The notes beneath the pieces are model-generated. The model did not search any database, was not told the DNA's origin, and saw only the letters and a program-made list of their open reading frames with translations. The position numbers and the translations under genes are program-made. Below, piece after piece: positions 18,534 through 20,770 of a stretch of 64,000 nt of DNA (positions are counted from its first letter, which is position 1; the number at the start of each line of letters is the position of its first letter). Source of the DNA: Pseudomonas sp. KBW05 (GTDB lineage: Bacteria; Pseudomonadota; Gammaproteobacteria; Pseudomonadales; Pseudomonadaceae); contig NZ_QAJM01000023.1 in NCBI RefSeq assembly GCF_003852405.1, forward strand, positions 1 through 64,000. The letters run 5' to 3'.

Positions 18534-18666
18534 GTTGCCTCCCTGTGTTGTTATAAATGGATAGGGCAGGGTTCAAAAAGGTTCATTCAAAATGACAATC
18601 TGCATGTCGGCGCGGCATAGTGTCGCCTCTGCACTGTGCTCAACGATTGCGCCCAAGGATTGCGCC

Positions 18667-19494
18667 ATGCCCGACCTGACCCATCGCCAGCTTTACTTGC
18701 AACGTCTGGGCTACGACACGCCGCCTGCACCCACCCTGCAAACCCTGCGCGACCTGCAACTGCGCCATGTGTGCACCTTTGCCTTTGAAAGCCTGTCCAC
18801 CTTGCTGCGCCTGCCGGTGCCCATCGACCTGGCCAACGTCGAGCGCAAAGTGTTGCTCGATGGGCGAGGGGGGTATTGCTATGAGCTGAACCAGATGTTC
18901 CTGGCCCTGTTGCAGGAGCTCGGTTTTGACGCGCGCGGTATTACTGGCCGTGTGGTCATGGGCGGGCCGGCGGATGCACGCACGGCACGTACCCATCGCT
19001 TGAGCCTGGTGACCCTGGACGGAGTGCGCTACATCACTGACGTCGGCTTTGGCGGCATGGTGCCCAGCAGCCCGTTGCAGTTGGACAGCGAAGCGGTACA
19101 GGCTACGTCTCACGAGCCCTATCGCCTGACGCACAATGCGGACGACAGCTACACGTTATGGGCTGAAGTCGCCGGGGAATGGCGCGGGCTGTATGTGTTT
19201 GACCTGCAGGAGCAGGCGGACATCGATTACGAAATCGGCAACTGGTACGTGTCCACGCATCCGGGTTCGCCGTTTCTGGGCCAATTGAAAGTGGCGCGGT
19301 TGGCACCGGGCAAACGCTACACGTTGAACAACGCCCACTATGCGGTCCACTACCTGGATCGGCCCAGTGAGAAACACACGATTAAACAGGCCGATGAACT
19401 CTTGGCGCTGCTCAGGGAAACCTTTGGGATTCGCTTGCCGGTAGAGGGGGCGTTGGTTGAAAAAATCAATGGCTTAATAATGGCATCTAGCTAG
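18667..19494 (+). CDS. Arylamine N-acetyltransferase
   Basis: A 275-residue NAT enzyme transferring acetyl from acetyl-CoA to arylamines and hydrazines. The Cys-His-Asp triad is complete: C71 in GGYCYELN, H110 in ARTHRLSL and D125 in YITDVGFGG. Length matches the family (about 270-285). The ATG at 18667 is preferred over the open frame from 18592 because the family N-terminus aligns from LTHRQLYLQRLGY. It is divergent from the small gene at 18533 and precedes the outer-membrane barrel gene. Confidence 0.95.
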   Translation: MPDLTHRQLYLQRLGYDTPPAPTLQTLRDLQLRHVCTFAFESLSTLLRLPVPIDLANVERKVLLDGRGGYCYELNQMFLALLQELGFDARGITGRVVMGGPADARTARTHRLSLVTLDGVRYITDVGFGGMVPSSPLQLDSEAVQATSHEPYRLTHNADDSYTLWAEVAGEWRGLYVFDLQEQADIDYEIGNWYVSTHPGSPFLGQLKVARLAPGKRYTLNNAHYAVHYLDRPSEKHTIKQADELLALLRETFGIRLPVEGALVEKINGLIMASS

Positions 19495-19530
19495 AAATAT
19501 CGAGATAGAGCCATCGCTGAACCGTTTTAT

Positions 19531-19617
19531 CTCCTTGTCTGCGCAAATGAATGCGAACCTTTTTCCTACATTTAGGCTCGAAGCGGTTCCGGAGTAATTT
19601 GCTCACCAGACAAGGAG
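19531..19617 (+). promoter_or_regulatory. Long nested hairpin masking the RBS of the outer-membrane barrel gene
   Basis: Four nested perfect stems: CTCCTTGTCTG 19531-19541 with CAGACAAGGAG 19607-19617 (11 bp); GCAAAT 19543-19548 with ATTTGC 19597-19602; GAACC 19555-19559 with GGTTC 19585-19589; and CCTA 19565-19568 with TAGG 19573-19576. The right outer arm contains the AAGGAG ribosome-binding site (19612-19617), 10 nt before ATG 19628. If transcribed as a leader it would occlude translation. A DNA-level inverted repeat is the alternative. Confidence 0.6.
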
Positions 19618-19627
19618 CTGTAAAACG

Positions 19628-20380
19628 ATGTCCAAGCTATTCGGAAAATTCCTCAAGAACACCTCGGTATTTGCGCTAGTCGCAGCGCCTGCCATGGTGT
19701 TCGCCGCACCGCCGACAGGGCCGATTTCCACCTTCGGTATCCTGGGTGCCTACAACGACTTCAAGCTCGAAGGCGGTAGCCAAAGTGACAAGGACAACAT
19801 GCCCGAAGCGGGCCTGTTCTATAACTTCGGCAACAAACTCACCGCTGAGTCTGGCTTTATCTACCAGGCGGGCGTTACCGCCAAGTACGGCAAAAAGAGC
19901 GACAATAAACTCAAGGACGGCCAGGCCGACCTGGACCTCGGCTGGCGTGCCGCGCTGGATGCGCGCAACTCGGTCGATGTGATCGCCGGCGGCGGCTATA
20001 GCTGGACCCGCTACGAGCTGGACTCCAACAACGAAGACCTGGAGCTCACCAGCAAATCGCCATTTGCCAAGGCGGCCCTGGGCTACAACCACCAGTTCGA
20101 TGACATGACCCTGCGTGTCGAAGCCGGCGCCCGCCGCACCCTGGACGGCCGCGCCAAGATCAAGGTGGACGGCCTGGGCAGCGACACCGTGGATCTCAAG
20201 GACCGCACCAACCCCTACGCCGAAGTCAGCCTGCTGATGAACCAGAAGGGCGACCTGCCGGTGGTCGCGGGCCTGTACTACACCCGCACCGAGTACAAGC
20301 TGGATGAAGACTCGGAGGTGGCGGATAACACCAGGCTCAAGCGGGATGAGTATGGGGTGAAGGTCGGAATCGCGTTCTGA
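19628..20380 (+). CDS. Outer-membrane beta-barrel protein
   Basis: A 250-residue exported protein. The signal peptide MSKLFGKFLKNTSVFALVAA ends about residue 26 (MVFA-APP). The mature part is alternating beta-strand sequence rich in aromatic girdle residues (AGLFYNFGNKLTAESGF, GGGYSWTRYEL, AGLYYTRTEYKL) and ends in the outer-membrane insertion signature with terminal Phe (YGVKVGIAF). The size suits an 8- to 10-stranded barrel related to YfaZ/OmpW-like proteins; no specific name is justified. Its ribosome-binding site lies inside the long hairpin at 19531-19617, suggesting post-transcriptional control. Confidence 0.82.
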   Translation: MSKLFGKFLKNTSVFALVAAPAMVFAAPPTGPISTFGILGAYNDFKLEGGSQSDKDNMPEAGLFYNFGNKLTAESGFIYQAGVTAKYGKKSDNKLKDGQADLDLGWRAALDARNSVDVIAGGGYSWTRYELDSNNEDLELTSKSPFAKAALGYNHQFDDMTLRVEAGARRTLDGRAKIKVDGLGSDTVDLKDRTNPYAEVSLLMNQKGDLPVVAGLYYTRTEYKLDEDSEVADNTRLKRDEYGVKVGIAF

Positions 20381-20400
20381 CGACAGCACCGCATCACTCA

Positions 20401-20514
20401 TGTGGGAGCGGCGGTGCGACGATTCGACTTGCTCGCGAAAGCGCTGGGTCAGTCGAGGCATCTGTGACTGACACTGCGCATTCGCGGGCAAGCCCGCTCC
20501 CACATTTTTGACCG
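20401..20514. repeat. REPIN with one variant arm
   Basis: The right arm (about 20480-20504) is standard (CGGGCAAGCCCGCTCCCACA). The left arm starts TGTGGGAGCG at 20401 and resumes TTGCTCGCGAA at about 20429, but holds about 18 extra bases (GCGGTGCGACGATTCGAC). A related GCGGTGTGACGATTCGAG occurs at about 20549-20566. Confidence 0.7.
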
Positions 20515-20574
20515 CGTTCGTCAGAAGAATCCGGTCACATGTCAGGGCGCGGTGTGACGATTCGAGCACGTCGT

Positions 20575-20706
20575 TGTGGCGAGGGAGCTTGCTCCCGTTG
20601 GGCTGCGTAGCGGCCCCGAATCCGGATACTGAGATTTATCAGGGATAACGCGGTGACCTTTTTGGGGCCGCTTCGCGCCCCAGCGGGAGCAAGCTCCCTC
20701 GCCACA
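20575..20706. repeat. REPIN, TGTGGCGAGGGAGC type
   Basis: Arms 20575-20602 and 20679-20706 are near-perfect inverted copies starting TGTGGCGAGGGAGC. The spacer holds a second inverted motif (GCGTAGCGGCCCCGAA / TTGGGGCCGCTTCGCG). Confidence 0.85.
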
Positions 20707-20742
20707 GGAATTCCTTGTGGAATTTACTCATCGCAACAAACG

Positions 20743-20770
20743 CAAAACGGCGCCCGAAGGCGCCGTTTTG
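20743..20770 (-). terminator. Terminator of the nuo operon
   Basis: Stem CAAAACGGCGCC (20743-20754) / GGCGCCGTTTTG (20759-20770), loop CGAA. It lies 23 bp beyond the nuoN stop. Confidence 0.9.

Follow-up and report, generated by a model that had tools for sequence, protein, structure and literature searches.

The leader of an outer-membrane beta-barrel protein gene in a Pseudomonas genome of the fluorescens subgroup carries a long predicted hairpin that encloses both the ribosome-binding site and a predicted ECF-sigma promoter. The best reading of this arrangement, with a probability of roughly 0.55, is that the hairpin is a translation gate set by the position of the transcription start. Long RNA begun upstream would include the left arm of the hairpin, which would fold onto the ribosome site and leave the message poorly translated. 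If the promoter motif within the hairpin is functional, short RNA begun there would be free of the left arm and open to translation. The long RNA would come from read-through of an upstream arylamine N-acetyltransferase gene or from a distal promoter in a conserved block between the two genes, and the barrel protein would be kept low until an envelope-stress sigma factor becomes active. The features concerned are collected in Table 1, with positions counted in the window, the 64,000-nucleotide stretch of DNA that was analysed.

Genomic context and hairpin structure

The gene 3' of the hairpin had been described as encoding an outer-membrane barrel, and the match of its product to PF13505 bears this out (Table 1); no NCBIfam family matched the protein, which is 100% identical to its homologue in Pseudomonas sp. 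CBZ-4 (L031). The N-acetyltransferase open reading frame ends 133 nt upstream on the same strand, no terminator-like site was found on the plus strand between the two genes, and this reading frame is a possible source of read-through RNA into the barrel leader. On the 3' side, a GC hairpin with a T run at 20747-20766 resembles a terminator and separates the barrel gene from a convergent nuoN-like gene. Two long inverted repeats at 20398-20707, also 3' of the barrel gene, have GTGGCGAGGGAGCTTGCTCCC-like arms of the kind found in Pseudomonas REP elements; a search of these repeats against Rfam gave only sub-threshold microRNA matches.

The preliminary description reported four nested stems of 11, 6, 5 and 4 bp and an AAGGAG Shine-Dalgarno (SD) sequence within the right arm, 10 nt 5' of the ATG, all of which are present in the sequence. 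An additional 7-bp stem lies outside these four and lengthens the helix up to the ATG. Positions 19481-19660 fold with -55 kcal/mol (z -4.21), and one of 200 shuffled sequences was equally stable. For background, 760 kb of this genome, among them the window, supplied 396 SD-bearing gene starts. The total energy of the barrel leader is ordinary in this set (278 starts are as low), the SD is equally closed in six starts, and an equally strong upstream duplex occurs in 23. In 12 starts the SD pairs (>0.9) with a site 45 nt or more upstream, and in two, the barrel leader counted in, long-range SD pairing is as high as here. The hairpin is thus unusual but not unique within one genome, and the case for it rests on conservation across genomes.

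Table 1. Features of the barrel gene leader and its surroundings.
Feature	Position	Strand	Basis or remark
Arylamine N-acetyltransferase ORF, co-directional, upstream	18592..19494	+	PF00797, Pfam E 9.1e-68
Conserved block (most relatives: TTGAnnTAGAGCC; window: TCGAGATAGAGCCA)	19500..19513	+	3.5 parsimony changes per column vs 10.3 just upstream
Left arm, anti-SD: CGTTTTA + CTCCTTGTCTG	19523..19541	+	Sequence, conservation, covariation
Outer 7-bp stem, CGTTTTA with TAAAACG	19523-19529/19621-19627	+	Sequence
11-bp stem	19531-19541/19607-19617	+	Sequence
6-bp stem	19543-19548/19597-19602	+	Sequence; left strand GCAAAT, also in alignment
5-bp stem	19555-19559/19585-19589	+	Sequence
4-bp stem	19565-19568/19573-19576	+	Sequence
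Predicted ECF-sigma promoter: -35 GAACCT (19555-19560), N17, -10 TCGAA (19578-19582)	19555..19582	+	Start predicted near 19589
Right arm strands	19597-19602, 19607-19617, 19621-19627	+	Sequence, fold
Shine-Dalgarno AAGGAG	19612..19617	+	Sequence; GGAG invariant across the 46 leaders
Outer-membrane beta-barrel protein gene, 250 aa	19628..20380	+	PF13505, E 1.2e-8

Conservation of the leader and a predicted internal promoter

Homologous loci were collected from related genomes, 85 of 299 of which matched; loci were excised for 30, and 80 of 95 named loci were kept. The distinct leaders among 64 sequences from Pseudomonas fluorescens-group genomes (the window and 63 loci) form a set of 46 close leaders, and a distant set consists of L059 and L065-L109, with a usable start in 45 of these 46 (L077 was dropped). 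By alignment, the left arm is kept in every close leader, at 1.24 parsimony changes per column against 10.3 in the fast-changing flank. The nearest relative (L031), whose barrel protein is identical, has two left-arm differences at 19531-19541 (CTCTCTGTCTG), one giving a G-U and one an A-C, so that even this relative lacks the perfect 11-bp stem.

Inside the hairpin, all 46 close leaders contain GAACYT-spacer-TCGAA, with a spacer of N17 in 44 and N16 in two; the predicted start lies 37-41 nt from the ATG. No other part of the leader is as constant as this motif: parsimony changes per column amount to 0.44 in the -35 element and 0.00 in the -10 element, whereas the spacer has 7.7 and the sequence upstream of the conserved block 10.3. 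Among distant loci, 39 of 45 have a looser motif of the GAAC[CT]-N15-18-TC type, for which the predicted leaders measure 35-44 nt. An AlgU consensus promoter is given in PMC7641640 as GAACTT-N16/17-TCTNN; the barrel motif is one base off in its -35 element and fits in its spacing of 17, and its -10 element TCGAA has TCG and not TCT, so that the sigma factor can be assigned as ECF-type only, with an AlgU/RpoE-like or a SigX-like factor as candidates. The RpoE cut-off was exceeded by one gene among 31 genome matches. A relaxed form of the motif gave nine matches in the genome and eight for a reversed control, which is uninformative, the pattern used detected no such promoter around algU, and neither the left motif nor the strict promoter motif was found a second time in the genome. 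The alignment shows the -35 and -10 elements (19554-19582) of many relatives as near-inverted copies of each other (TTCGAACC, GGTTCGAA); an ECF-like motif is therefore present on the minus strand as well, and transcription from it could run towards the N-acetyltransferase gene.

All three outer stems have their left strands 5' of the predicted start, and a transcript of this promoter would thus be unable to form the hairpin. The preliminary description had counted a transcription start downstream of 19541 against its proposal, and it is there that RNA from the predicted main promoter would begin. With the start inside the hairpin, a switch would act through promoter choice and not through melting.

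Upstream of the left arm, AGAG in the conserved block (19507-19510) is unchanged in the 46 leaders, and the block (TTGAnnTAGAG) is perhaps a distal promoter or a regulator site; a sigma-70-like site was sought in the block of the window and none was found. The N-acetyltransferase gene is missing upstream in five of the 46 leaders (L004, L014, L029, L044, and L046), which still keep the arm, and each of the four of these that were examined (all but L029) has a divergent small gene in this position. Long RNA in such leaders would need its own promoter, perhaps in the TTGAnnTAGAG block. In four relatives (L044, L046, L113, and L114), the N-acetyltransferase gene is absent, the divergent small gene upstream encodes a protein with ..AKIYT..YQLHGKPKSFVVRAEVMN.., and the hairpin arm stays. 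Insulation from the N-acetyltransferase gene alone, considered as a purpose of the arm, is weakened by the five leaders that lack this gene. The gene is absent upstream in all 46 distant loci (two with less than 400 nt visible); arm and N-acetyltransferase gene thus go together, which a single origin may explain.

Covariation between the hairpin arms

The variable part of the left arm tracks the right arm in several lineages: the window has CTTGTCTG/CAGACAAG, P. paralactis CCATTTT/AAAATGG, and P. rhodesiae GTCAGGTG/CACCTGAC. Across the 46 leaders, duplexes of a leader's own arms average -23.2 kcal/mol and those of swapped arms -21.6 kcal/mol, and none of 20000 permutations was as low; within the two right-arm types (16 and 30 leaders), 29 and six of 20000 permutations were. 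Because relatedness can mimic an own-arm advantage, the evolution of left arms was simulated along the tree of the coding sequences, each column changing at its own rate while the right arms stayed fixed. In none of 200 runs did the simulated difference (0.06, sd 0.38 kcal/mol) come up to the -1.65 kcal/mol observed, nor was the observed own-arm energy attained. Five control segments, including the reversed and the complemented left arm, had no comparable effect, the nearest being the -35/-10 spacer (-0.32 kcal/mol, 382 of 5000 permutations). On this comparison of leader sequences, with an own-arm advantage beyond both the tree null and the controls, the arm pairing is under selection.

The kind of mismatch tolerated depends on how much of the arms is counted. 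Ten core pairs give 460 cells, comprising 432 Watson-Crick, 14 G-U, no A-C, and 14 other combinations, and G-U without A-C is expected of plus-strand RNA; in this count the partner of the SD was the best Watson-Crick 4-mer match, which favours pairing, and cells are leaders and not independent events. Over the whole arms, A-C cells outnumber G-U cells (41 and 28), and mismatches flanked by pairs comprise nine G-U and five A-C contexts; the whole-arm counts have no tilt to G-U and so express no preference for RNA over a DNA palindrome.

The column-wise covariation called for in the preliminary description was absent. RNAalifold, applied to the 46 leaders, picked another structure in which none of 31 pairs had changed on both sides (covariation term -0.58), and covariation emerged only when each leader's own arms were compared. 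Arm lengths differ between lineages, with which a column alignment copes badly; the RNAalifold result still counts against the gate reading. A leader-to-coding stem that it proposed, TTCCTGAATAATTTG with codons 3-7, was not taken as selected: own pairs are no better than swapped pairs (3706 of 10000 permutations), and synonymous recodings pair equally well (a median of 192 of 300 as strong). Two rare codons are fixed at the start of the gene (19628-19660) in a manner that pairing with the leader does not explain. Codon 4 is CTA in all 45 leaders that have Leu there, a codon that supplies 49 of 1129 Leu codons in the family, and codon 6 is GGA in 46 of 46 leaders, compared with 51 of 1162 Gly codons.

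Predicted access to the ribosome site

At 28 °C, the SD has a mean predicted unpaired value of 0.06 in the long RNA, 0.34 in the short RNA, and 0.29 in the long RNA with a shuffled left block. Predicted binding of the SD to the left arm exceeds 0.9 in 35 of the 46 leaders and is below 0.2 in three (L012, L016, and L063), in which the two scarcely pair; in L011, L012, L032, L042, and L043, a shuffled left block often performs equally. The mean predicted cost of opening the region from the SD to the start codon is 12.0 kcal/mol for the long and 8.1 kcal/mol for the short RNA (15.7 and 7.1 kcal/mol in the window), with a median difference over the 46 leaders of 3.2 and a smallest difference of 0.0 kcal/mol; the short RNA is itself partly structured. 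These models suggest that only messages begun at the hairpin promoter are likely to be translated well. Of the translation switch by SD sequestration first proposed for this leader, the sequestration is supported by covariation beyond the tree null and controls and by core G-U without A-C pairs, and the thermometer form is not.

Alternative explanations

An unlikely alternative is that the left block is a DNA element, either a regulator site or a distal promoter, that sets transcription, its complementarity to the leader being secondary or a relic of an inverted duplication. Such an element would account for the invariance of AGAG and CTGAA in the left block without a pairing partner, for a left CGTTT that is invariant although its right-arm partner varies, for the retention of the block when the upstream gene changes, and for whole-arm mismatches not tilted to G-U; it accounts less well for own-arm pairing in excess of the tree null and the control segments, and for core pairs with 14 G-U and no A-C cells. 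The unpaired invariant motifs, together with a left arm that does not follow a one-base right-arm loss in eight leaders, indicate that the left block likely has a DNA-level role in addition.

It is improbable, although compatible with selected arm pairing, that the long form serves as the normal mRNA and needs a trigger to open it. The trigger could be a nuclease that cuts the loop, a small RNA, or a protein of the Rsm/CsrA type bound to the GGA within the SD. Cleavage in the loop reportedly operates in tisB and hokB, and ACAAGGAG, a sequence near the Rsm motif, occurs at the SD in 24 of the 46 leaders. Against this reading, the hairpin promoter motif varies less than any other part of the leader and persists in distant relatives that lack the arm, so that a short RNA is to be expected.

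Functionless chance pairing between a conserved promoter region and a conserved leader is quite improbable: the 12 of 396 gene starts with an SD paired far upstream indicate that such pairing can arise, but here the left arm is conserved amid a fast-changing flank and covaries. An RNA thermometer, whose helix would open on heating and expose the ribosome site, had been suggested by an SD sequestered 5' of an outer-membrane gene, and PMC8245352 reports ompA of Yersinia pseudotuberculosis, with an SD likewise paired 5' of an outer-membrane gene, under thermometer control; this reading is rejected as very improbable, since predictions for the long RNA keep the SD closed at all temperatures from 5 to 60 °C (the unpaired value exceeds 0.5 in none of 46 leaders, means 0.06-0.09) and a search of the hairpin stretch against Rfam, with E up to 1, gave no match. 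In contrast to ompA-type thermometers, the barrel leader has no predicted temperature opening and its left arm lies outside the predicted main transcript.

Relation to known systems

A translation gate set by the transcription start would have partial counterparts in mobile elements and phages. For the transposase genes of IS10 and IS50, RNA that reads in from outside folds in such a way as to hide the ribosome site, an arrangement that is alike in this respect and differs in belonging to mobile elements without an ECF promoter. The logic of the proposed gate is that of phage T4 gene e (lysozyme), as well as soc and 49, for which PMC3014915 describes a long RNA with the SD hidden in a helix and promoters within the 5'-strand region, whose transcripts lack that strand and are translated well. 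Gene e thus shares with the barrel leader an SD hidden in the long RNA and a promoter inside the hairpin that frees a short RNA; the barrel case differs in its bacterial chromosome, its ECF-type motif, its outer-membrane gene, and a translation effect that is predicted. Promoter placement that leaves transcripts too short for an inhibitory hairpin is also described, in PMC2988022, for I-TevI, segB, and mobE of T-even phages; these are alike in a promoter whose RNA cannot build the hairpin, and differ in being homing endonucleases under phage late promoters with mapped starts or deletions. Full-text searches for a bacterial or insertion-sequence counterpart, which reached few subscription journals, led to the T4 review and to one paper on cyclopropane fatty acid synthase mRNA and small RNAs; a published counterpart may still exist.

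The chances are about even that a bacterial chromosome here uses the device known from phage T4, with a sigma factor's promoter placed in the very hairpin that silences every longer transcript of an envelope gene. If the gate operates as proposed, both the synthesis of the RNA and its fitness for translation would depend on which sigma factor is chosen, and an outer-membrane gene could be shut off tightly in the face of background transcription. Other cases of the design could be sought as ECF promoters flanked by conserved anti-SD arms.
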